Made by a program: the position numbers and the translations under genes. From contig WLGW01000015.1 in assembly GCA_009703055.1 (NCBI GenBank), positions 1 to 32,042 of the forward strand: a DNA stretch of 32,042 nucleotides. Direction: 5' to 3'. The number at the start of each line of letters is the position of its first letter. Position 1 is the stretch's first letter. This document shows, in pieces, positions 4,983 through 27,914 of the stretch. The notes under the pieces were generated by a model, which made no database searches, had not been told where the DNA came from, and saw nothing but the letters and a program-made list of their open reading frames with translations. Source of the stretch: Actinomycetota bacterium. Lineage in GTDB: Bacteria > Actinomycetota > Acidimicrobiia > Acidimicrobiales > Ilumatobacteraceae.

Positions 4983-6217
4983 GGTTTTGCTGCCCCTGCG
5001 ATGATGCTGAAGTTCAAGGCAGAACGTTCCTTCACGGCTGGCAACGCCTGACGAATCTGCATTTCAATTTCAGATGCGTTCGAAATGCATCGCTTCACTT
5101 GTTCGACGATCTCTTCAGGATGCGACAAAGTGGTCGAATCCATACCGAAGTCGGCCAATCCAAAGTCGTCTAGTACTTCGCGATACTTGTGGCTCCAACC
5201 CACCACGACCGTGGGAGTGCACGTGGAGAGACCCGAAATCATTGCGTGGAAACGAGACGTCACGAGCACCTGCCCCATCCCGATGAGATGCCGCAGTTCC
5301 CCAGCGGACAAATCCGCATCGACATCAATCACCATCTCGTCATCTGACAGTGCAGCCGCAACTTGTTGACACACAGGCCCGTCATTCATACGACCTTCAG
5401 GATGTCCCACACGGTACGAGTGAGGTGCAATCACCACTGCAAGCCCTGTTGCAGACCTGATCTTGCGGATCAACTCTGCAACAGCAGAGACATAATCGGC
5501 ACCGGTCGACTCATACAGTCCGCGCACAACAGAACTCGGCATCACAACGACAAACTTCTGCTGCAAGGGAGCCAGCGCTGCCATCACAGAATCAGGAAGA
5601 TTCTCAGATTCATCTAACGAGAACGCCAAGTCCGCCACATTTGTGACGCTAGAAAGCTGCAACGTGTCGAGATGCTCCCTAGTCCGCGAACCTCGAGCAC
5701 ACACAGCAGCCAGTCGAGGCAATACCAATTTGGCAAGAAGACGATTTGGCTGAGTCTGAAAGGGTCCCAGTGCTTGGGCAGCTTTCACGGTGGGCACGCC
5801 CAACAAAAGTGAGAGCCCAGTCATCAGAGAGTTGTACACCGTGATGGGAATGCCACGTCCATCAACAAACGAGATACCTGCGACATCGACAACAACCGAA
5901 GAATCAAGAATGGAACGACAGGCTCGAGTGCGCACCCAGCCGAGAGGTAGTCGCATAGTTCTCGCAACCAGTGCCAGACACGCAATAGGTATTTCCATCA
6001 ATGCCAAGCGCAAAGGCTGCAGACCAACAACTCTTGCTGGTGCACCAGAAGGGATCTTGGGAGCATCAGCCTCTGGATACGTGGTCAGAATGTTGAACGT
6101 GCAATCCCCCATCGTTGTGGGAAGTTTGGCAATGACAGTCTCCAACATCGCTGCCGCACCCTTATTGGCAGACAGCGCCGCTCCGACTATTGATACCTGG
6201 CGTTGCGTTGCACTCAC
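4979..6217 (-). CDS. Polysaccharide pyruvyl transferase family protein
   Basis: A 412-residue protein starting at GTG 6217, 8 bases after the GT2 stop, with no clear Shine-Dalgarno, so translational coupling is likely. It begins with the family's glycine-rich nucleotide-like loop (VGAALSANKGAAAMLE) and has the C-terminal signature VTSRFHAMISGLSTCTPTVV followed by GWSHKYREVLDDFG. These are the hallmark of the PS_pyruv_trans / CsaB / WcaK family, which adds ketal pyruvate from phosphoenolpyruvate to sugar residues of exopolysaccharides or cell-wall polymers. Residues in between (SSVVRGLYESTG, APHSYRVG) also fit. It overlaps the FrhB-like gene by 4 bases. The acceptor sugar is unknown; the family assignment is strong. 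Confidence 0.87.
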   Translation of the reverse strand: MSATQRQVSIVGAALSANKGAAAMLETVIAKLPTTMGDCTFNILTTYPEADAPKIPSGAPARVVGLQPLRLALMEIPIACLALVARTMRLPLGWVRTRACRSILDSSVVVDVAGISFVDGRGIPITVYNSLMTGLSLLLGVPTVKAAQALGPFQTQPNRLLAKLVLPRLAAVCARGSRTREHLDTLQLSSVTNVADLAFSLDESENLPDSVMAALAPLQQKFVVVMPSSVVRGLYESTGADYVSAVAELIRKIRSATGLAVVIAPHSYRVGHPEGRMNDGPVCQQVAAALSDDEMVIDVDADLSAGELRHLIGMGQVLVTSRFHAMISGLSTCTPTVVVGWSHKYREVLDDFGLADFGMDSTTLSHPEEIVEQVKRCISNASEIEMQIRQALPAVKERSALNFSIIAGAAKP

Positions 6218-6225
6218 GGGGAAAA

Positions 6226-7131
6226 TCAGGCGGGTGGCACCGAGACAGGAGACTTCGTTGCTCGCACAACGAGATCAGCTAAGAGTCCAACGGTGATGAC
6301 TTGGAGTGCAGCGAAGAAAACAAGCAAGGTGTTCGCAGCGAGACGGAAATCTCGACCAGCCCAATCGAAGCCCAGTTTGACGAAGCCAGCGGCAAGCAAC
6401 AAAAGGCCAATGGGCAAGAACACTTTCAATGGGTTATATGACAACGTCATGCGAATGACTTGAAGAATGTAGCGACGAGTGTCCTTCAACCAGTGAAACT
6501 TTGAGCGACCAGCACGCGGGAAATACTCAATGGGGAAAAAGCCAATGGAGTATCCATTACCCAGGAAAGACATGGTCAACGTCGTCACGCAGGAAAAGCC
6601 CTTGGGCAACTCATGGACGTACTGCATGGCTACATCGCGACGGAATGCACGAAGGCCAGAGTTCAAATCCTTGATGTCGGTCTCTGACAAATAGCTTGCC
6701 AGCTTTCGGATAATCCACTTCGCCGGAGTGCGCAACAACTTATGTGTGCCCTCTTCTGTCTGGCGCCAACCAACGACATGGTCAACACCTTCCATCGAAT
6801 CAACAAGTTCGGGAATCAGGTTGTTCGGGTAGGTCATGTCGACATCGGTCCACACGACAACGCGGCCACGCGCAGCTGTTGTTCCTGTACGACGAGCAGC
6901 ACCACTGCCAGAGTTGCGACGATGCGTAATCAACGTGATGCCCGGAATGTTCGCAAGTTCCGCTTCAGAGCCATCATTGCTTCCATCGTCTACAACGATG
7001 AGTTCGAACGAATACTTCGATGCTTCCAAAGCTTCCCGGATGCGCTCAATCTCAGTACGAAGGTGCCCCTTTTCGTTGTAGATAGGGAGAACTACGCTTA
7101 CATCGCACTGGTCGGGGGTGTACTCGGTCAT
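6226..7131 (-). CDS. Family 2 glycosyltransferase with C-terminal membrane segments (polyprenyl-phosphate sugar transferase type)
   Basis: A 301-residue GT-A glycosyltransferase. The ATG at 7131 is preceded by AGGA. The N-terminal domain shows VVLPIYNEKGHL, VVDDGSNDGS near residues 46-54, and the metal-binding Asp96-x-Asp98 in VVWTDVDMTYP, then a DLNSGLRAFRRD block. These resemble dolichyl-phosphate-mannose synthase and related polyprenyl-phosphate glycosyltransferases (DPM1/DPMS, ArnC, GtrB). Two hydrophobic helices follow at about residues 233-290, anchoring the catalytic domain to the inner membrane face. It is the second gene of the operon, 21 bases after the large membrane protein, which could use the lipid-linked sugar it makes. 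The nucleotide sugar is not determinable. Confidence 0.9.
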   Translation of the reverse strand: MTEYTPDQCDVSVVLPIYNEKGHLRTEIERIREALEASKYSFELIVVDDGSNDGSEAELANIPGITLITHRRNSGSGAARRTGTTAARGRVVVWTDVDMTYPNNLIPELVDSMEGVDHVVGWRQTEEGTHKLLRTPAKWIIRKLASYLSETDIKDLNSGLRAFRRDVAMQYVHELPKGFSCVTTLTMSFLGNGYSIGFFPIEYFPRAGRSKFHWLKDTRRYILQVIRMTLSYNPLKVFLPIGLLLLAAGFVKLGFDWAGRDFRLAANTLLVFFAALQVITVGLLADLVVRATKSPVSVPPA

Positions 7132-7152
7132 GTCTATTCCTGGCTTCTTCGA

Positions 7153-8898
7153 TCAGCAATGGGCAGTATTAGCCCGTTGCCACAGTACTCTTTCGACTGC
7201 CTTCTCCGTGGCGACGATGGTCCATTCCCCGTCTGATGGCGGCTTCGAAGCCACGCCATAGATACACGAGAAGACTTTAGGAATGGTGGCGTTGCGTCCC
7301 GAGGTATTGAACCGAACCACCCGAATCGGGTGCAACTTGTACCTCATGTAGTAGTAAGACCGGTCGTTGCGAATCTCGATATCGAATCCCACACGCACGG
7401 CACCTGAATCCTTCACCATCTGAACAGTCTGATTTGTGGCCTCTAAACGCGCAGTTCTCGTCAGAATGCTGTTCTGGCCTGAGTATGTCGAACTAGCTGC
7501 GAATAACGCGACCAGTGCCAAAACTGCGACAGCACCCTTCCGGCGTGCAAGTGTCCACAAAGCCAAAGCGACGGCGGCAAAGAACAGTCCAAAAGTGATG
7601 AGACCGGGACGAATGATGTAGCGAGCAATGTCCATTCCGACGATGTTCGGATACACAATGCTGTCTCTGTAGTGACTGCCCTTCACACCATCACCAAAGT
7701 CGATGAAGACATAAAACGCTGCAACACCAAAAATTGCGAGACCAGTGACGACCCAGGCTCGTTGCGCCAAAAGTGACGACCGTTCGAGCGCCACACAAGA
7801 AATCACCAACAGAGCAGGAACCATCATTTCGACATAGCGACCGTAAATGAGATGATCTCCACGATTGCCGTATAGCAATTGCAAACCACCGGTGAAGATG
7901 ATCGCGAACGCTGCTGTGAATACAACAAGAAGCGTCACTCGTTCAGCATCGGACCCCAAAGTCTTTCTTCCCCCGTTGCCGACTACACGAGACACAATGA
8001 AAAAGATTGCGATACCGATGAGTCCACACGAACTTGCAATCAGATACCAGCTCTGCCCCACCATTGTTCGCAGCAAAGCAGGCCACACCCCCGGATTCAC
8101 TAACCGTTCCAGAAGTCTGTTTTCTTGGTCGTATGACGTTGTGTAGACCGCGGTCTTGACGAACTTATTCAAGAGATACGTGGAGAAGTACGCAACTGCC
8201 GTAACCGCAACAGCACTGGTCGCCGTGACGAAGGTGATCTCTTTTCTGCGCCACCACCATGCAAACAGCAAACACACAATGGGCAACAACAAGATAAAGC
8301 GACCGTGAAGAGCTGGCATGAGACCAGTGAAAAGGCCAAGGCCAAAAACGAGCGCCCGAGTACGCGCTTGTGCGGCCCGCATGACAAACCCAACGAAAAC
8401 CAAGAACGCCAATCGGGAGGCTGTCTCGGCCCAACTAAACATCGCCGACACAATGGTTCCGGGTACAACAAAGACAAGAGCGCTGATCAATAAAGCCATG
8501 TGGCGCGATGCACCGAAGCCGCGCTGCGCTAATCGACCTGCGTACCAAGCCGTTGCAATGGCCAAGAGCACGTTCGTCAACAACGCAAAACGGTACGCGC
8601 CACTAATTGACCCACTGAGAAGGGCTCCCAGTCCAGTCACAATTCCGTATCCGGCGGGGTAAAAACTGCCCGTGGGGATTGCTGCCTCATCGTGCCCGAT
8701 GAGGGCTTGACCGTTCGTAAGGAATCCAAACTCGTCGGGATGCACAGTGGGTCCGTACTGGCGGATCGCCACGGTCAGCATGAACAAACCGCATAGACCC
8801 GCCAGGACAAGACCAAGACGAGAGTGAGTCAGCGAGGGCTCGAAAGATCTCTCAGAATGAAGCCGAGAATCGAGACGGCGCAGTCGGTTGAAATCCAC
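7153..8898 (-). CDS. Large polytopic membrane protein, GT-C-like (possible lipid-linked sugar transferase)
   Basis: A 581-residue protein starting at GTG 8898, first gene of the glycan operon. It has many hydrophobic segments (roughly 11-13) spread from residue 28 to 480 and a soluble C-terminal tail of about 110 residues. The first extracytoplasmic loop contains YGPTVHPDEFGFL; an acidic residue pair just after the first membrane helix is a feature of GT-C glycosyltransferases that use polyprenyl-phosphate sugars. No closer family was recognised. Its position directly upstream of a DPM-like GT2, which would supply such a donor, supports a mannosyltransferase-type role, but this is inference; an O-antigen-ligase-like or uncharacterised membrane protein is the alternative. 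Confidence 0.7.
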   Translation of the reverse strand: MDFNRLRRLDSRLHSERSFEPSLTHSRLGLVLAGLCGLFMLTVAIRQYGPTVHPDEFGFLTNGQALIGHDEAAIPTGSFYPAGYGIVTGLGALLSGSISGAYRFALLTNVLLAIATAWYAGRLAQRGFGASRHMALLISALVFVVPGTIVSAMFSWAETASRLAFLVFVGFVMRAAQARTRALVFGLGLFTGLMPALHGRFILLLPIVCLLFAWWWRRKEITFVTATSAVAVTAVAYFSTYLLNKFVKTAVYTTSYDQENRLLERLVNPGVWPALLRTMVGQSWYLIASSCGLIGIAIFFIVSRVVGNGGRKTLGSDAERVTLLVVFTAAFAIIFTGGLQLLYGNRGDHLIYGRYVEMMVPALLVISCVALERSSLLAQRAWVVTGLAIFGVAAFYVFIDFGDGVKGSHYRDSIVYPNIVGMDIARYIIRPGLITFGLFFAAVALALWTLARRKGAVAVLALVALFAASSTYSGQNSILTRTARLEATNQTVQMVKDSGAVRVGFDIEIRNDRSYYYMRYKLHPIRVVRFNTSGRNATIPKVFSCIYGVASKPPSDGEWTIVATEKAVERVLWQRANTAHC

Positions 8899-8904
8899 GG
8901 ATAG

Positions 8905-8910
8905 ACCCTA
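8905..8910 (-). promoter_or_regulatory. Candidate -10 element of the glycan operon (near-leaderless)
   Basis: TAGGGT fits the actinobacterial TANNNT -10 pattern and ends exactly 6 bases before GTG 8898, the spacing expected if transcription starts at or next to the start codon. An AGGG inside the same stretch could instead act as a weak ribosome binding site. Confidence 0.35.
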
Positions 8911-8944
8911 GTTTCACCCCTCCCCACAAACGGGTAGCCCCCAT

Positions 8945-10435
8945 CTACGGCAATTCTCGGTGCACGGCCTCCACATAATCGGACCACTCGTTGTCTAGGA
9001 CATCCAAGAATGTGCGGGTCCATGTCTCATATAGAGGCCACTCATCGCCCACCCATTGATGAGCTTCAGCATGGGTCTTCCCCTCACGCAACATGTACCA
9101 AGCCTTCAAGACAAAGGTGGTGCGGCTACGGCCGCCGTGGCAGTGCACCACAACCTGGCGTCCCTCTTCCAAGAAGGCGTCAATGGCCTCCACTGCCTCA
9201 CGAAGAACGAAGAACAACTCTGGGTTGCGGTCTCCTTCGCTGTCACGCATGTACACACCACGACGGTACGGATGATGAATAAACCGGTCATCAGTGATGC
9301 ACAAAGAAACAACACCAAAGTCATTCGGCACTAACCGTGCGCCATCCAAGTTAGATGCCCACACACCTAAATCATGGACCTTGCCAGGCTGCACTGGTGG
9401 CTCGACCCAACTACGTGGAGCATTACCCAACGCCAGCAAACGTCGAGCTGTGTCGATGAGATCTTGACAGCGATATTGCACCTTGCGACCGTCAGGCATC
9501 ACAACGTGGCCATGCACATAGGTTGTCCAACGGATGGGGATGCCTTGCATTCCGTAGAAGGCACCTGCCATCGAACCAGCGATAGCCGCAACCGTGTCCG
9601 TGTCTCCACCAAGATCAATTGCCGCAACGACTGCATCATGAAAACACGTAGTGGAACGCACAGCCCAGATCGCCTGTGCGACAGCGGTCCAAATGGTTCC
9701 ATTTGGCGGACCAACATGTGTCAACGGATCAAAACTGGCAGAACAAATCTCAACAAATTGTTCCAGCACTACCGAAGCCAATGGCGTGCCTGCCAAGAAT
9801 TCGAATGTCGAAGCCACCGACGCCTCGAAGTCACCGGTGACAATGGTGTTTCGAATGATCTCGGCAACAATCGCTGCCCCTGCACTTGCAGCAGGGTCGA
9901 AGTGGGTGATGGAAGCCTGCGCGACAGCAATTTCATATGTCATGGCTTGACCAGCAAGCACGCCCACAATTCCCACAGGAGCAATGCGCATGGCAGCGCC
10001 ATTACTTGCAGTACGGCCACCCAGCATGTTGTGAGCCTTCTCCGCCGCCCCAACATAAGAATCAAAGCGAAGTGATGTACCAATCGTGATACCCACGTCA
10101 ACAGCCGAGTCGGACCATGCACGGAAATGAGACCACACCACTGCTGGATCAAAACCCTCGCCTGCTTCAAGAGCTTCAGCGAGTGCAAGAGCCATTTGTG
10201 TGTCATCAGTGAATTCACCAGGAGCCCAACCGAAAGAACCACCACCAATCATTTCCCCGATGCCGCCCAAAACTTCTGTTGGGAATGTTTCTCCGTATAG
10301 ACCCGCGCGCTTGAATTCGAAAGGGGCACCGACAGCGTCAGCTACTGCGCAACCGACCAGGGCTCCATACGCCCGCACTTGCTGCGGATGCGTGAGATCT
10401 CGGGGTGAAATTGATGTGTTGTGGTCTCTTGTCAT
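8945..10435 (-). CDS. ADP-ribosylglycohydrolase fused to a dual-specificity protein phosphatase domain
   Basis: A 496-residue two-domain protein. Residues ~20-325 form an ADP_ribosyl_GH (DraG/ARH) domain: GALVGCAVADAVGAPFEF, the metal-site Asp77-Asp78-Thr79 (FTDDTQMALA) and the second metal site in DLGGDTDTVAAIAG (Asp278-Thr-Asp280-Thr281). ARH enzymes use two magnesium ions to remove ADP-ribose from proteins or nucleic acids or to hydrolyse related ADP-ribosyl compounds. Residues ~345-490 form a cysteine phosphatase domain with the P-loop HCHGGRSR (Cys432-x5-Arg438), as in dual-specificity phosphatases. The start at ATG 10435 has a near-perfect AGGAGG 7-8 bases upstream. The gene is divergent from an NrtR-type repressor, with a candidate operator beside its -10. 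Phosphatase action on ADP-ribose phosphates or on phosphoproteins are both possible. Confidence 0.92.
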   Translation of the reverse strand: MTRDHNTSISPRDLTHPQQVRAYGALVGCAVADAVGAPFEFKRAGLYGETFPTEVLGGIGEMIGGGSFGWAPGEFTDDTQMALALAEALEAGEGFDPAVVWSHFRAWSDSAVDVGITIGTSLRFDSYVGAAEKAHNMLGGRTASNGAAMRIAPVGIVGVLAGQAMTYEIAVAQASITHFDPAASAGAAIVAEIIRNTIVTGDFEASVASTFEFLAGTPLASVVLEQFVEICSASFDPLTHVGPPNGTIWTAVAQAIWAVRSTTCFHDAVVAAIDLGGDTDTVAAIAGSMAGAFYGMQGIPIRWTTYVHGHVVMPDGRKVQYRCQDLIDTARRLLALGNAPRSWVEPPVQPGKVHDLGVWASNLDGARLVPNDFGVVSLCITDDRFIHHPYRRGVYMRDSEGDRNPELFFVLREAVEAIDAFLEEGRQVVVHCHGGRSRTTFVLKAWYMLREGKTHAEAHQWVGDEWPLYETWTRTFLDVLDNEWSDYVEAVHRELP

Positions 10436-10474
10436 GTGTTCTCCTCCTACAGCTCTCGCTGTTGGTTTACAGTA

Positions 10475-10512
10475 GATATGTCCCTAATATAACACATGAG
10501 GTGTGTCACCTC
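10475..10512. promoter_or_regulatory. Divergent control region with candidate NrtR operator(s)
   Basis: This lies between the divergent hydrolase and nrtR genes. GATATGTCCCTAA (10475-10487) is the exact reverse complement of TTAGGGACATATC at 11352-11364 upstream of the vWA gene, so the element has the same orientation relative to both target genes and sits just downstream of an AT-rich -10-like hexamer (TATATT for the hydrolase). Immediately beside it is a perfect inverted repeat GAGGTG-TGT-CACCTC (10498-10512), upstream of the nrtR -10. NrtR repressors normally bind palindromes in the promoters of NAD and ADP-ribose genes and of themselves. Which of the two elements NrtR binds is not known. 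Confidence 0.6.
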
Positions 10513-10524
10513 CTCATTAAGGGT

Positions 10525-10530
10525 TATCTT
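10525..10530 (+). promoter_or_regulatory. Candidate -10 element of nrtR (leaderless)
   Basis: TATCTT lies 8 bases before ATG 10539, with no Shine-Dalgarno in between. This spacing implies transcription begins at or within two bases of the start codon and is the reason for keeping ATG 10539 over the in-frame ATGs at 10557 and 10584. Confidence 0.4.
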
Positions 10531-10538
10531 CACTAAAA

Positions 10539-11309
10539 ATGTGTCAAACTGTCTGTATGAGTGTCACGAAACGCACTAAGCAAATGAACTTCTTCGTCTA
10601 TGTCGACACGGTGATCTTCACCATCAACCCAGACCGCTCTATTCACCCTCGCGACAGACTCGAAGTTCTCGTCATGCAGAGACCCGAACGACCTGACGTG
10701 TCCAAATGGGCCCTTCCCGGTGGCCTCGTGGGAGAAGATGAGCGCCTTGATGAGACATCCATTCGCAAGGTCAGAGAAGAGACTGGCATTCAGCTAAGGA
10801 CAAAAGATCTTCACCAAGTTGCCACTTTCGGAAACCCTGACAGGGACAACAGATACAGAGCCATCGCTATTGCTTATGTCGCACTTGTCCCCCACCCAGG
10901 AGCAACAAAGGCCATCTCGCATTCCGATAAGGCTGAGTTCATTCCCTATCGGCTTTTGCGCGACAAGAAGATGCTGGAATTCGACCACACCGACATCATC
11001 TACGCGGCACGCAGAGCAGCGCGCAAGATGCTGGAAGACACCAGCGTTGCGCTGAACTTCTGTGGATCCAAATTCACAATTAGCGAACTCCGTGGCGTCT
11101 ACGAGGCATTCCTTCAGTACGAAGTCGACCCAGCCAATTTCCGTCGCAAGGTCGACGCTGTGAAGGATTTCGTTATCCCACTTGACGAGTACGCAGATTT
11201 CGGTTCATCACCAGGCCGTCCGGCATTGATGTACCGAGCTGGTCGTCTCACTTCCCTGCCGACTCCTATTCGGTTCCGTCGACCCGATGGAAAACCTTTA
11301 GAAAAGTAA
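10539..11309 (+). CDS. nrtR: NrtR-type Nudix-family transcriptional regulator
   Basis: A 256-residue protein (start 10539; 10557 or 10584 would remove 6 or 15 residues). Residues ~16-150 are a Nudix domain with KWALPGGLVGEDERL. The Nudix box starting at Gly62 keeps Glu68, Arg76, Glu80, Glu81 and Gly83, but Lys77 replaces the Glu of the REUxEE core, as expected for a sensor that binds rather than hydrolyses. Residues ~165-240 form the winged helix that defines NrtR (FTISELRGVYEAFLQYEVDPANFRRKV), ending in GRPALMYR. NrtR proteins repress NAD-metabolism genes and are released by ADP-ribose or related nucleotides. Here the divergent neighbour is an ADP-ribosyl hydrolase whose product could be the inducer, giving a feed-forward loop. 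No nad genes are nearby, so this looks like a dedicated local regulator. Confidence 0.88.
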   Translation: MCQTVCMSVTKRTKQMNFFVYVDTVIFTINPDRSIHPRDRLEVLVMQRPERPDVSKWALPGGLVGEDERLDETSIRKVREETGIQLRTKDLHQVATFGNPDRDNRYRAIAIAYVALVPHPGATKAISHSDKAEFIPYRLLRDKKMLEFDHTDIIYAARRAARKMLEDTSVALNFCGSKFTISELRGVYEAFLQYEVDPANFRRKVDAVKDFVIPLDEYADFGSSPGRPALMYRAGRLTSLPTPIRFRRPDGKPLEK

Positions 11310-11351
11310 TTTCTACCTTAATTGCAACTGTGACAGACCCTTGCCGTACAT

Positions 11352-11381
11352 TTAGGGACATATCGACACAAATAGTGTCCC
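11352..11381 (+). promoter_or_regulatory. Candidate NrtR operator upstream of the vWA gene
   Basis: TTAGGGACATATC (11352-11364) is identical to the element in the hydrolase promoter. It is nested in two inverted repeats: GGGACA (11355-11360) with TGTCCC (11376-11381), and GACAC-AAATA-GTGTC (11365-11379). A -10-like TACATT lies at its upstream edge, so a bound repressor would cover the transcription start. Repressor identity is inferred from the adjacent nrtR. Confidence 0.6.
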
Positions 11382-11397
11382 GTCCGAAAGGTAGACA

Positions 11398-12069
11398 ATG
11401 TCCACACACTCACTCAAGCCCACTCACGTGGCACTCCTCCTCGACCGTTCCGGTTCGATGGCTCCCCTAGTTTCTGATGTCATCGGTGGTGTCAATCAGT
11501 TCCTCACCGAACAACGCGCTCAGGGCAACGACGTTCGCGTCAGCATTGTGCAGTTCGATTCCAATGACCCCCAAGAGGTCAAGGTCTGGGGATCACCCAT
11601 CTCCGAAGTCAGCACTCTGACGACGGCGGATTTTCAACCTCGCGGCGGAACACCACTGCTCGACGCAACCGGACTTCTCATTGGTCGTGTCAAGGTTGAT
11701 GCGCAGGCTCGCGTTGCAGCAGGTCTCGCAGAAGAAGACATCGTGTTTGTCACCGTCACTGACGGCGAAGAAAACCAATCACGAGAGTTCACCCTTGCTC
11801 AAGTCAAGGCGCTCGTTGAAGCACAGACTGCAGCGGGCTGGACATTTGTGTTCTTGTCAGCTGGACTCAATGCATATGCAGACGCTGCAGCGATGGGCTT
11901 CGATGCTTCCAACTCTCAAGCATGGGATCGTCGCGGAGACAACACCCGCATGGCGTTCAACAGCGTGTCCAAGGGAATGACCAATATGCGCGAGAAGAAG
12001 CGTCGCGGCATGATGACGGAGAATGTTGATTTCTTCGAGACCGGCAAGGACGCCGAAGAAAACATCTAA
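11398..12069 (+). CDS. von Willebrand factor A domain protein with intact MIDAS, TerY/YegL-like
   Basis: A 223-residue protein consisting almost entirely of one vWA domain. The metal-ion-dependent adhesion site is complete: Asp16-x-Ser18-x-Ser20 (LLDRSGSM), Thr85 in RGGTPLLDA and Asp122 in VTDGEEN. A basic tail (REKKRRGMM) and an acidic C-terminus follow. There is no signal peptide or membrane segment, so it is cytoplasmic. ATG 11398 has GAAAGG upstream. It lies 88 bases after nrtR with its own promoter carrying the shared 13-base element, so it is probably in the same regulon as the ADP-ribosylglycohydrolase. Cytoplasmic vWA proteins of the TerY type act as metal-dependent scaffolds with phosphatases and kinases in stress systems; the phosphatase domain of the neighbouring fusion would be a natural partner. 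The function is not established. Confidence 0.87.
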   Translation: MSTHSLKPTHVALLLDRSGSMAPLVSDVIGGVNQFLTEQRAQGNDVRVSIVQFDSNDPQEVKVWGSPISEVSTLTTADFQPRGGTPLLDATGLLIGRVKVDAQARVAAGLAEEDIVFVTVTDGEENQSREFTLAQVKALVEAQTAAGWTFVFLSAGLNAYADAAAMGFDASNSQAWDRRGDNTRMAFNSVSKGMTNMREKKRRGMMTENVDFFETGKDAEENI

Positions 12070-12075
12070 GTCCGG

Positions 12076-13296
12076 CTACGGACGAGGCTTGCTGGGATCG
12101 GGCTCCTTCGGGAGCCCGAGAACACGCTCACCCACAATGTTGCGCTGCACTTGAGCTGTTCCGCCCCAGATGGTGGAGGAACGATGCTGGAAGAACATTG
12201 ATGTCCAACGATCGGCCACATACTTGCCGTCCTTGTCATCGAGAATCAACATTGCTTCGGCGCCGCGAGCATTCATCATGCGCTCAGTGAACTTCTGCGC
12301 ATATTCCGACCAGAACATCTTGTTAATGGAAGCTGCTGGACCGGGCTCTTTGCGTGCCAAGACTTCGGAGAGAAGCTTGAGACCCTGGAAGCGCATGATC
12401 TCCACGTGACTAAATGCCCAGGCGAGTTGCTGACGAGTAATCGGATCCGAAGTCTTTCCTGACTTCTTCAACATGTCGACAGCTTCCCAGAACTGCTTGG
12501 TGTACTCAACGTGCTGTGTCGTTGCATGTCCACCACGCTCGTTGCCAAGCGTTGTCATTGTGACTCGCCAACCGTTGTTCATGCCACCAATGATGTTGGC
12601 GACCGGAGCACGTGACTCTGTCATGAATGTTTCAGTGAAGTGCGATGAACCATGTGGCTGCATGATGGGGCGCAACTCAACACCATTTGACTCGCCGCCA
12701 TCTTTGAACATCGGAAGCAACACGTACGAGATGCCTGCATGCTTCGGCGCATCTTGATCTGTGCGACACAAGCAGAACATCATGTTGGCTTCTGTTGCGC
12801 CTGATGTCCACACTTTTTGTCCGCTGATCACGACTTCTTCACCGTCAATAACACCACGTGTCTTCAACGCAGCAAGGTCGGAACCGGCATCGGGCTCGGA
12901 AAACCCTTGGCAGTAGCGATCTGTGCCATCAATGATGCGAGGAAGAAAACGCTTCTTCTGTTCGTCGGTACCCCACACGATGATGGAAGGACCAACCAAC
13001 CACTCACCCATGCCTCGAGTAACACGAGGAACATTGGCGCGAGCAAACTCTTCATTAAGAACGGCAACTTCGATGCCCGTGAGGCCGCGACCGCCGTATT
13101 CCTTTGGCCATGAGACACACATGTAACCGGCAGCAGAAAGCGTGTCAGCCCATTCACGAGCACCCTTCACCTGTCCGCGCTGCAATGCATCAGCAGAAAC
13201 ACCGACGAGCTCCTTCGGAGCATTCGCTGCGAGCCATGTACGGACTTCTTCGCGAAATGCTTGTGCTGCTGGTCCGAGATCTAGTTCTAACGGCAT
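12076..13296 (-). CDS. Acyl-CoA dehydrogenase (FadE type)
   Basis: A 406-residue flavoprotein of the acyl-CoA dehydrogenase family, starting at ATG 13296 behind GAGGGGG. It shows FSEPDAGSDLAALKTRG (FAD/substrate loop), VWTSGA, an ERGGHATTQ segment and the C-terminal FFQHRSSTIWGGTAQVQRNIVGERVLGLPKEP that is common in actinobacterial FadE enzymes of branched, aromatic or steroid side-chain degradation. It oxidises acyl-CoA to enoyl-CoA and passes electrons to ETF. The gene ends 6 bases from the convergent vWA gene. An alpha/beta hydrolase and an LLM oxidoreductase lie upstream on the same strand, suggesting a small catabolic set; the substrate is unknown. Confidence 0.92.
   Translation of the reverse strand: MPLELDLGPAAQAFREEVRTWLAANAPKELVGVSADALQRGQVKGAREWADTLSAAGYMCVSWPKEYGGRGLTGIEVAVLNEEFARANVPRVTRGMGEWLVGPSIIVWGTDEQKKRFLPRIIDGTDRYCQGFSEPDAGSDLAALKTRGVIDGEEVVISGQKVWTSGATEANMMFCLCRTDQDAPKHAGISYVLLPMFKDGGESNGVELRPIMQPHGSSHFTETFMTESRAPVANIIGGMNNGWRVTMTTLGNERGGHATTQHVEYTKQFWEAVDMLKKSGKTSDPITRQQLAWAFSHVEIMRFQGLKLLSEVLARKEPGPAASINKMFWSEYAQKFTERMMNARGAEAMLILDDKDGKYVADRWTSMFFQHRSSTIWGGTAQVQRNIVGERVLGLPKEPDPSKPRP
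12099..12118. other. UUCG-capped GC hairpin at convergent gene ends
   Basis: CGGGCTCC (12099-12106), TTCG, GGAGCCCG (12111-12118) form a perfect 8-bp stem with a TTCG tetraloop closed by C-G. It lies in the last codons of the acyl-CoA dehydrogenase gene and about 30 bases past the vWA stop. No T-run follows on the plus strand, so it is not a canonical terminator, but it could block or stabilise the 3' end of the vWA transcript. Confidence 0.4.
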
Positions 13297-25589: not shown

Positions 25590-27032
25590 TCAAGCCAGTT
25601 TCTCGACGAAAGCCTCAAGCTGACGCAAGTTGCGACACTCAAAGACTCCATCGGTATGAACTCCGTATTCGCCAACGATCGAGTCACCGGTGTTCCAGTA
25701 CGAGCGAGGCTCAGGATTCAGCCAGTAGACCTTGCGAGCCTTCTGCTTCATTTCCTTGATGACCCATGCCTGAGATGCGTGATAGTTGTTTCTTGCATCA
25801 CCAAGAAGGATGACGCTGGACTTGGGATTGATTTCCTTGCCCCACTTCTCCCAAAACACTTCGAATGCATGGCCGTAGTCAGAATGGCCATCAACCCAAA
25901 TCACATCAGCTTCAGTGTTTATTCGTTGAATTGCTTCCGACACATCTTCGGTCTTCTTGAAGTAATCAGTCACTTCATCGATGCCGTCAATGAAAACAAA
26001 CGCACGAACCTTTGAGAATTGGTTCGACAATGCATACACAAGCATGAGAGTGAACCGAGCGAACGCAGCAACTGAGCCAGAGATGTCAGCCACCACAATA
26101 AGTTCAGGCTTTGCGGGGCGCGGATACTTGAACTTGGGCTCTGCAGGCACACCACCGTACGCAAGGCTGTGTCGCACTGTATTGCGGAAGTCGAGAGGCC
26201 CCTTACGTCCGTGACGACGCTTACGAGCCAATTTTGCAGCAAGCTTGCGCGTCAACGGCTGCAGAGCCTTCTTCAGGTTCTGCATTTCATCACGGCTTGC
26301 GTGCATGAATTCAACATCTTCAGGAAGAGGCTTGCGCAACGTCTTTGCCATTGCTTCAGCACCGCGGTCTGCAACTAAACGACGACGGATTTCAGCTTCC
26401 ACTTCTTGCTTGAACTGTTCGATGCGATGGTTGTATTCATCGCGCTCAAGTCGCTCTTCAAGTTTGGTGAGTTCGCCGCCCACTTGCTGACGACTTGCTT
26501 CCATCAACTTCTCAGACATGCCATCTAAATCAAGATTGCGCAGAGTGCGATACAAGTAATAGGTACCACCGACAGGTCGGCCTGGTTCCATACCGGCGAA
26601 ACGCTGAACTGCCTGACGAGCGAGTGCACGCATCATTGCCTGGTCGCCATTCATGAGTGCATTCATCAGAATGTTCATGAGTTCTTCGGGCGTGAGCTGG
26701 TCCATGCCGCCAGCACCACCATTGCCTTCGCCCTTCATCTGGGCGTCTTGCATTTGACGCAAGAAATCGTCAATATCGCCACCAGTTCCATCACCGTCGG
26801 TGATGCTGTACTCCGGACCACGAAGACTGAAGTACACCTCAAAGACGGTTTCGAAGGAACGCCAGTGCGCGTGATTCTTTACAAGAGTCGCACCGAGTGC
26901 GTATTTGAATGCTTCGCGATCCTCAAGAGGAATATGCGAGATGGCAGTCATCGCATCAAGGTTCTCGGTGAGGCTCACGGGCAGACCCGCGTTCCTCAAC
27001 TCAACAATGAACCCAGATAAAAGATCAAGCAT
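25590..27032 (-). CDS. CoxE-like von Willebrand A domain protein
   Basis: A 480-residue protein. The N-terminal ~300 residues are helical and charged, with GFIVELRNAGLPVSLTENLDA at the start and a stretch with MxxALMNGDQAMMRALARQAV. The C-terminal vWA domain has the MIDAS Asp316-x-Ser318-x-Ser320 (VVADISGSVA), then VFIDGIDEVTDYF and VILLGDARNNY. The layout matches CoxE (VWA_CoxE), which pairs with a MoxR AAA ATPase to load metals or mature enzymes. The moxR gene lies 18 bases upstream. No carbon-monoxide dehydrogenase genes are in the window, so the client is unknown. Confidence 0.9.
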   Translation of the reverse strand: MLDLLSGFIVELRNAGLPVSLTENLDAMTAISHIPLEDREAFKYALGATLVKNHAHWRSFETVFEVYFSLRGPEYSITDGDGTGGDIDDFLRQMQDAQMKGEGNGGAGGMDQLTPEELMNILMNALMNGDQAMMRALARQAVQRFAGMEPGRPVGGTYYLYRTLRNLDLDGMSEKLMEASRQQVGGELTKLEERLERDEYNHRIEQFKQEVEAEIRRRLVADRGAEAMAKTLRKPLPEDVEFMHASRDEMQNLKKALQPLTRKLAAKLARKRRHGRKGPLDFRNTVRHSLAYGGVPAEPKFKYPRPAKPELIVVADISGSVAAFARFTLMLVYALSNQFSKVRAFVFIDGIDEVTDYFKKTEDVSEAIQRINTEADVIWVDGHSDYGHAFEVFWEKWGKEINPKSSVILLGDARNNYHASQAWVIKEMKQKARKVYWLNPEPRSYWNTGDSIVGEYGVHTDGVFECRNLRQLEAFVEKLA

Positions 27033-27050
27033 GACGACTATGCAACCGAA

Positions 27051-27914
27051 CTAGTCGATGGAGAGTTCTTTGGCTGCCTTAGCAATGTCTGTCTGATACT
27101 TCAGAAGAACATGCAAGGTTTCCTTGGCCTGTTCAGCATCAATTGTCTCAAGACCCAACAAGACCAGGGTGCGAGCCCAGTCAAGTGTTTCTGACACAGA
27201 AGGAGCCTTCTTGAGGTCGAGCTGACGAATGCTGCGAACGATGCGTGCAATCTGGTCGGCCAACATCTCAGTGATGCCTTCCACCTTGGTGAGCACGATT
27301 TCCTTCTCGCGATCCATCTGTGGGTAATCAACATGCAAGAACAAGCAACGACGCTTCAGAGCTTCCGACAATTCACGAGTGTTGTTTGATGTGAGGAACA
27401 CCATAGGAATCTGCTTGGCAGTGATGGTGCCCAACTCAGGAATTGACACTTGGTACTCAGAGAGAATTTCGAGAAGAAGAGCTTCTGTCTCCACCTCAAC
27501 ACGGTCCACTTCGTCAATCAGGAGAACGACGGGCTCTTCGGCCGTGATGGCCTCAAGCAAGGGACGTGTCAGAAGAAATTCATCACCGAAGATGTCGTCA
27601 TGGACATCTGACCAAGAATCAGAGTTCTTGTCTGCCTGGATACGAAGCAACTGCTTCTTGTAGTTCCATTCGTAGAGCGCCTTGGACTCGTCGAGACCTT
27701 CGTAGCACTGCAAACGAATCAGACGAGCGCCTGTCATTTCGGCGATGCTCTTTGCCAGCTGGGTCTTACCCGTACCGGCGGGACCTTCGACCAAGATGGG
27801 CTTGCCAAGACGATCAGCGAGGAACGCAACACCCGCAATGCCGTCATCGGCCAGATAATTAACAGCCTTGAGGCCGTCACGAACTTGTTGAACTGAGTCG
27901 AAGCGAGGTGCCAT
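27051..27914 (-). CDS. MoxR-family AAA+ ATPase (CoxD-like)
   Basis: A 287-residue AAA+ ATPase. Walker A is GPAGTGKT (residues 44-51), Walker B VVLLIDEVDRVE with Asp134-Glu135, sensor 1 FLTSNNTRELSEALKRRCLF with the arginine finger, then a lid with sensor 2. The family acts as a chaperone for metalloenzyme or complex assembly together with vWA proteins; the next gene is such a partner. The ATG at 27914 has no Shine-Dalgarno but a TAGGTT hexamer 9 bases upstream, and it is divergent from murJ. It is the first of five closely spaced genes. Confidence 0.93.
   Translation of the reverse strand: MAPRFDSVQQVRDGLKAVNYLADDGIAGVAFLADRLGKPILVEGPAGTGKTQLAKSIAEMTGARLIRLQCYEGLDESKALYEWNYKKQLLRIQADKNSDSWSDVHDDIFGDEFLLTRPLLEAITAEEPVVLLIDEVDRVEVETEALLLEILSEYQVSIPELGTITAKQIPMVFLTSNNTRELSEALKRRCLFLHVDYPQMDREKEIVLTKVEGITEMLADQIARIVRSIRQLDLKKAPSVSETLDWARTLVLLGLETIDAEQAKETLHVLLKYQTDIAKAAKELSID

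Follow-up and report, generated by a model that had tools for sequence, protein, structure and literature searches.

A probable NrtR-controlled, ADP-ribose-inducible de-ADP-ribosylation module with a shared promoter element in Ilumatobacteraceae

The locus and its closest described counterparts

The closest described counterparts of the locus studied here are the ADP-ribosylglycohydrolase (ARG)-centred systems predicted by Iyer et al. 2022 (PMC9503650, section 3.8), which combine the hydrolase with a phosphatase, a Nudix/WYL repressor, vWA proteins and other chaperones, and for which feed-forward induction by released ADP-ribose is proposed as a defence against phage ADP-ribosylation. The locus consists of three genes at positions 8945 to 12069 of a 32,042-nucleotide stretch (hereafter the window) of an Ilumatobacteraceae genome (assembly GCA_009703055.1, contig WLGW01000015.1), whose source is probably a freshwater bacterium, coding for an ARH/DraG-type ADP-ribosylglycohydrolase fused to a DSP phosphatase (ARH-DSP), an NrtR-type repressor and a vWA protein. 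In our literature search, PMC9503650 is the only source whose text joins NrtR with an ADP-ribosylglycohydrolase, and no experimental test of the ARG-centred architecture was found in the literature searched. The gene combination and the circuit are already predicted in print; the feed-forward circuit is thereby not novel, and the claim of the initial annotation that these domains are rarely combined does not hold. What is new is a promoter element, along with the other genes at which it is found: in the main text of PMC9503650 the words “operator”, “AAA”, “HDAC” and “tetratricopeptide” are absent, and “TPR” and “histone deacetylase” each appear a single time, in passages on other matters.

The characterised NrtR proteins control NAD metabolism (PMC6800001). 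MsNrtR recognises a palindrome of 23 bp; its Nudix box is degraded, its hydrolase activity is undetectable, and ADP-ribose releases it from DNA (PMC6800001). In SoNrtR the residues R41 and R98 contact ADP-ribose (PMC4666351). We favour as probable, on balance, that the window harbors an NrtR-controlled, ADP-ribose-inducible protein de-ADP-ribosylation module of the ARG-centred kind, with the following features:

8945..10435, minus strand: ARH/DraG-type ADP-ribosylglycohydrolase fused to a C-terminal DSP phosphatase, 496 aa (Pfam and aligned catalytic residues)
9536-10366, minus strand: ARH domain of ARH-DSP (Pfam)
9050..9211, minus strand: DSP phosphatase core (residues 409-462), with the HCHGGRSRT active-site motif at 9119-9145
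10475..10508, minus strand: ARH-DSP promoter element, TGACACACCT-N6-TTATAT-TAGGGACATATC, with the shared 13-mer at 10475-10487
10539..11309, plus strand: NrtR-type repressor, 256 aa, with a Nudix-like domain (10659-10970) and a winged helix (11055-11237)
11331..11364, plus strand: vWA promoter element, TGACAGACCC-N6-TACATT-TAGGGACATATC, with the shared 13-mer at 11352-11364
11398..12069, plus strand: vWA protein with a complete metal-ion-dependent adhesion site (MIDAS), 223 aa

The fusion, the divergent NrtR and the intact MIDAS described by the initial annotation are confirmed by Pfam and by invariant residues. Residues 24-300 of ARH-DSP match PF03747 (E 2.5e-54) and residues 409-462 match PF00782 DSPc (E 1.6e-8, 34.9 bits against a cut-off of 33.5). 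The acidic metal-site residues D77, D78, D278 and D280 and the HC-x5-R residues H431, C432 and R438 are invariant in all ten aligned homologues, one further homologue with an internal stop having been dropped. The best NCBIfam matches of the hydrolase are DraG and Tri1, both far under their equivalog cut-offs, and the nearest structures by sequence are DraG 2woc and 6dre, with a weak match of the phosphatase half to 9e9l. The closest named relatives of ARH-DSP (96-90%) are metagenome genomes of Ilumatobacteraceae, Actinomycetota and Acidimicrobiaceae, and two further relatives are labelled acIV. A second ARH gene is present in the genome of the window (G000:C64:8298-9136; labels in G, C and L denote genomes, contigs and loci), where it is cut by the contig end and has a promoter without a visible box. 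The vWA protein matches PF13519 under the cut-off (E 3.5e-4, 21.6 of 27 bits), its nearest structures by sequence are integrin alpha-1 I domains, and its MIDAS residues D16, S18, S20, T85 and D122 are invariant in 18 of 18 aligned homologues. Elsewhere in the window (25590-27914), a CoxE-type vWA protein adjoins a MoxR-like AAA ATPase, a separate pair unrelated to the module.

NrtR matches PF21906 NrtR_WHD (1.6e-12) and PF00293 NUDIX (2.4e-12), each above its cut-off, and the NCBIfam model TransRepNtr with E 3e-25 but only 89 bits, far under the cut-off of 400. Alignment of relatives suggests that its second methionine (10557) is the likely true start. The Glu of the “RE” in the Nudix box is Lys in 10 of the 15 aligned proteins, the window protein included, Ile in two and Glu in three. 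Since the box is degraded as in SoNrtR, and MsNrtR with a degraded box has undetectable hydrolase activity, the Nudix domain is likely a sensor rather than an enzyme; PMC9503650 suggests differently that it helps to process ADP-ribose. R48 and R105 are invariant in 15/15 aligned proteins and align with SoNrtR R41 and R98 (3gz5 alignment, assuming a 3-residue numbering offset), so that, judging from these two arginines, ADP-ribose is the likely ligand, as had been proposed. By sequence the nearest structures are AraR 5bs6 (best, E 1.1e-35), 2fml and SoNrtR 3gz5 (E 1.9e-27). AraR has Gly at the position of R105, the second ADP-ribose-contacting Arg, and arabinose or pentose sensing is less likely here, where this Arg is retained.

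A shared promoter element and the genes that carry it

An identical 13-mer, TTAGGGACATATC, is present in the promoters of ARH-DSP and vWA. In the 1.58-Mb assembly (79% complete) it has two matches with at most one mismatch, which are these two promoters, and its reversed-pattern control has none; the pattern TGACASACC-N4-9-TANNWT likewise gives two matches and none for the control. Within the window, two matches are found at up to two mismatches versus 0.33 expected. The 13-mer sits within a 34-bp element of fixed register, TGACACACCC-N6-(TATAAT-like). The 23 sites used to build a matrix came from other members of the genus (8 ARH, 9 vWA and 6 promoters of a second phosphatase gene, DSP2), excluding the clade of the window (G000, G012, G015 and G003). 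This matrix ranks the ARH-DSP and vWA promoters first and second among about 64,000 window positions (10.1 and 9.9; next 5.8), and 1,920 random 200-bp stretches of the window reach at most 5.8.

This last value served as threshold in the relatives, where the element was counted as present if the best site within 200 bp upstream (ARH-DSP, vWA) or 230 bp (DSP2) scored above 5.8. It is found at 15 of the 16 ARH-DSP promoters examined in the genus, two more genes being cut by contig ends, and at all 18 vWA promoters examined, including those of five vWA genes without NrtR beside them. The excluded clade has 8/8 ARH and vWA promoters above 5.8 (6.8-20.9). Co-regulation of ARH-DSP and vWA, which the initial annotation had made a condition for a functional link, is well supported by these shared promoter sequences. 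The element was also considered as a general promoter and rejected: ACACACCC-N5-9-TAWNWT has 14 matches in 13 of the 32 genomes (reversed control 18), seven of them upstream of vWA or second-phosphatase genes and half elsewhere, and with so few matches the bare pattern is rare.

A matrix scan of 794,454 bases of loci, mostly around module genes, gave 34 matches above 12 bits, of which 32 lie upstream of ARH-DSP, vWA, DSP2, AAA+, HD, TPR or HDAC-like genes and two (L051, L231) are not clearly so placed. Most of the 32 are training sites or near copies, and the 12-bit threshold misses the sites of G000, G012 and G015, the ARH site of G003 and the C17 vWA site of G021. Of the gene classes not used in training, one codes for a TPR protein of 303-311 aa, which occurs in three of the 32 congeners and has the element in all three (16.6-24.1):

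L184:1354, L250:4863 and L417:1209: TPR genes with the element, in congeners G021, G025 and G019

The element is also found at an HDAC-like gene of G025 (16.1), at an AAA+ gene of G021 (16.4, with a 60-aa open reading frame between) and, weakly, at an HD gene of G001 (12.2, with a short open reading frame between). In the assemblies, some of these extra genes show no linkage to NrtR (G019, G025, G001) and others adjoin it (G021). In 80 named ARH-DSP loci (1,132,692 bases, several from the same genomes), 15 of 18 matches above 14 are at such promoters and three are not; the ARH-DSP promoter of a distant relative (L316) scores 22.1.

DSP2 lies together with an HDAC-family deacetylase gene in G000 (C32:17980-19500, L183) and 10 further congeners; the pair is adjacent in nine genomes, an HD gene intervenes in G001 and G028, and it is near NrtR-vWA in G031, G021 and G011 and apart, without the promoter element, in G000. 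An AAA+ ATPase gene (SpoVK/CbbX-like) directly follows ARH-DSP at L037:2698-4110 and in L038-L042, L048 and L049. By genome, this arrangement is seen in G001, G008, G014, G016, G019, G031 and, on partial loci, in G024 and G028; the window lacks the gene. The N-terminus of the ATPase appears by eye to be YbjN/TY-chaperone-like, and its AAA part matches PADLOC IetA models (E 1e-11).

A wider reading, which we put forward tentatively and with slightly more doubt than confidence, is that an ADP-ribose-sensing NrtR commands a dispersed, modular Ilumatobacteraceae regulon, a switchable de-ADP-ribosylation/repair response whose parts are swapped at a chromosomal hotspot. Its members would be ARH-DSP, vWA, DSP2 with the HDAC-like deacetylase, the AAA+ ATPase with a chaperone-like N-terminus, TPR and perhaps HD. 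With the promoter element known, further parts of such systems can be sought by promoter, beyond gene neighbourhood alone.

Distribution within and beyond the genus

Among 32 congeners, NrtR is present in 19, ARH-DSP in 18 and vWA in 17. The co-conservation of the three genes proposed initially holds within the genus (Fisher p 4.8e-6 for NrtR/ARH-DSP, 2.9e-5 for NrtR/vWA and 2.1e-4 for vWA/ARH-DSP; 0.012 for NrtR/DSP2); these genomes are related and many are incomplete, so that the counts are not independent trials. The three genes are adjacent in six genomes (G000, G003, G012, G015, G014, G019), with a vWA remnant in G031. ARH-NrtR without an adjacent vWA is found in G001, G008, G016, G006, G022, G021 (C47) and G027, with an HD-domain gene adjoining the pair in G021, G022 and G027, and vWA-NrtR without ARH in G005, G009, G025, G021 (C17) and G011. 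The three genes co-occur yet separate freely, and the term self-contained used by the initial annotation does not fit relatives in which such pairs stand alone and element-bearing genes are spread over several loci.

In 12 genomes a version of the module lies between acyl-CoA dehydrogenase and membrane-protein/GT2 genes. Comparison of occupied and empty sites delimits this position in the window:

8899..8944, no strand: left edge of the occupied site, with a membrane protein gene (7153-8898) beyond
12070..12075, no strand: right edge of the occupied site, with the acyl-CoA dehydrogenase gene (12076-13296) beyond

In G018 and G026 nothing occupies the site and the flanking genes nearly abut (113 and 44 bp); about 220 and 590 bp separate them in G011 and G006. 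In five more distant same-site loci (L037-L041), identity to the window is 58-73% for NrtR, 55-66% for ARH-DSP and 62% for vWA (two loci). Acyl-CoA dehydrogenase reaches 83-90% there and GT2 87-93% (four loci), but the membrane protein at the flank only 45-56%, and the ARH-DSP of G003 is 90% identical.

Beyond the genus, we surveyed 80 ARH-DSP loci of named genomes, kept from 326, and found NrtR nearby in 24 (12 in the genus), HD in 10, AAA+ in 8 and DSP2 in 2. In the phylum, vWA is present in 26 of 346 genomes, and 20 loci outside the genus, of 25 places, were surveyed. Within 5 kb of these 20 genes, DSP2 is found in L218 and L221 and ARH in L232 (plus a macro-domain gene) and L234, and one more locus has a weak 60-aa ARH match only. 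With L288 and the viral contig L382, four loci outside the genus have vWA within 5 kb of an ARH gene.

Of 50,697 phage records, 222 contain homologues of vWA, 29 of ARH and 43 of NrtR. The vWA homologues are mostly unannotated actinophage genes (96 Streptomyces, 57 Microbacterium; phrog_7371, E 8e-44). Among 79 viral vWA loci, ARH lies beside one and six near-identical ones have an HD match. The one with ARH is L382, where a vWA gene of the family lies directly beside an ADP-ribosylglycohydrolase gene (5974-7481). A phage origin of the whole module was rejected, as all three genes occur together in none of the 79 viral vWA and three viral ARH-DSP loci. In four plasmid ARH-DSP records of 86 matching ones (Streptomyces, Pimelobacter), no Nudix or vWA gene is annotated within 6 kb, most neighbours being “hypothetical”.

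Proposed mechanism, alternatives and comparison with known systems

The domains, the intact catalytic and metal sites, the shared element, the co-occurrence and the ADP-ribose-contact arginines are read from the sequence, and from them we infer the following circuit. At rest, NrtR would sit at the shared promoter element and repress ARH-DSP and vWA. Once a transferase, probably a foreign one from a phage or a competitor, had ADP-ribosylated proteins, the basal activity of ARH would free ADP-ribose, which would bind the Nudix-like domain of NrtR and lift repression. The induced fusion would then strip ADP-ribose from its targets, its phosphatase half possibly acting on phosphorylated ADP-ribose or ribose species or on phosphoprotein, and the vWA protein, presumably Mg2+-dependent, would hold modified or misfolded targets. 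NrtR is the probable regulator of the element and ADP-ribose its probable inducer, while a purpose in defence is plausible; bacterial reversal of invader-inflicted ADP-ribosylation has been predicted. The promoter element, the named pair of sensor residues and the list of element-bearing genes make this prediction open to simple binding and expression tests.

Several results weigh against this interpretation. The matrix training sites were picked since the box had already been seen, and the maxima of 100 mononucleotide shuffles of the window (mean 10.3, largest 26.0) are not exceeded by the window sites, so that rank, not score, counts as evidence for them; two of 100 shuffles also give two matches to the 13-mer at up to two mismatches. 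No palindrome above shuffle level is found in the window promoters, and the element does not resemble the palindrome described for MsNrtR (PMC6800001); inverted repeats above shuffles are present in the vWA promoters of some relatives, for example G028 and G022. In G016, NrtR adjoins ARH-DSP, yet the element is absent there. It is found at only 7 of 14 DSP2 promoters (that of G014 was left out of the count) and is missing in G000, G003, G011, G012, G015, G018 and G019. Moreover, vWA is nearby in only 6 of the 80 named ARH-DSP loci, five of them in this genus, and NrtR is near vWA in none of the 20 loci of the wider phylum. Finally, PADLOC has no model match for ARH-DSP or vWA, and its candidate model PDC-S07 is matched by NrtR over the Nudix part only (E 8.6e-6).

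A housekeeping role, in which the module would clear endogenous protein ADP-ribosylation, O-acetyl-ADP-ribose or free ADP-ribose under NrtR and have no anti-phage function, is the first alternative and seems to us unlikely, if not markedly so. DraG-type relatives have endogenous substrates, and DraG is the closest solved ARH structure; the NAD-related role of characterised NrtR proteins and the element at the HDAC-like gene of G025 point the same way. Against it, none of NrtR, ARH-DSP and vWA was found in 12 of the 32 congeners (many assemblies being incomplete), the site is empty in two genomes, and in the five more distant same-site loci acyl-CoA dehydrogenase and GT2 are better conserved than the genes of the module. 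In addition, a Pfam scan of 26 window proteins, covering the window apart from its first gene (2-739) and the genes at 28-32 kb, recognised no transferase or sirtuin. Nor was any nad gene recognised among these 26 proteins, and a classical NAD regulon is rejected, in agreement with the initial annotation.

We give a similarly low probability to the possibility that the element is a dedicated sigma-factor promoter or the site of another regulator, NrtR controlling only itself or being a passenger. The fixed spacing of the box and a -10-like hexamer, the lack of a clear palindrome in the window and the promoter of G016 would be in line with it. However, NrtR is present in 16/17 genomes with vWA and 17/18 with ARH-DSP, the exception being G028, which is 68% complete, and all 12 same-site loci have NrtR, 11 of them with the element. 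That vWA is an incidental neighbour of unrelated function is improbable: it is not next to NrtR in G001, G022, G027, G031 and contig C92 of G021, and its homologues are frequent in phages, with ARH nearby in a single viral locus, but the five vWA genes not next to NrtR still keep the element, and ARH, macro or DSP2 genes lie within 5 kb of vWA in L218, L221, L232, L234, L288 and L382.

Ter-type stress systems have TerD/TerC/TelA-type genes near the vWA gene. No match to such Pfam families was found among the 26 scanned proteins, and the analogy to Ter drawn by the initial annotation was dropped. Compared with DraG (2woc), the Tri1-type hydrolase 6dre and ARH3 (2foz), the window protein shares the ARH fold by sequence, with DDT and GGDxDT motifs, and differs by its C-terminal DSP phosphatase and by the absence of a paired transferase among the scanned neighbours. 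The likeness to the NrtR family (SoNrtR 3gz5/3gz6/3gz8; MsNrtR) lies in the Nudix-like sensor and winged helix, the retained ADP-ribose-contact arginines and the Nudix box, degraded at a position that is also Lys in SoNrtR; the difference is that the candidate targets are ARH-DSP and vWA, with no NAD-synthesis gene recognised nearby. AraR (5bs6), an arabinose-sensing relative, is the best structure match, yet differs from the window protein and SoNrtR in having Gly instead of the ADP-ribose-contacting Arg.

The ARG-centred systems, as described in PMC9503650, are the closest. They share the ARG core (here PF03747, E 2.5e-54) with a phosphatase, most commonly R-P/DSP and here a fused DSPc with HCx5R, a one-component Nudix repressor, here the divergent NrtR with a predicted repressor role, and a chaperone-type vWA, here with a complete MIDAS and a predicted chaperone role. 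They also share the lack of a coupled ADP-ribosyltransferase or sirtuin (in the window, among the 26 scanned proteins), a varying set of accessory genes that includes an HD phosphatase, and rapid evolution with gain and loss between close relatives, of which gain and loss are clear here. What distinguishes the present locus from the systems of that paper is the shared promoter element, which in relatives is also found at a second DSP phosphatase with an HDAC-like neighbour, at TPR genes and at an AAA+ gene.

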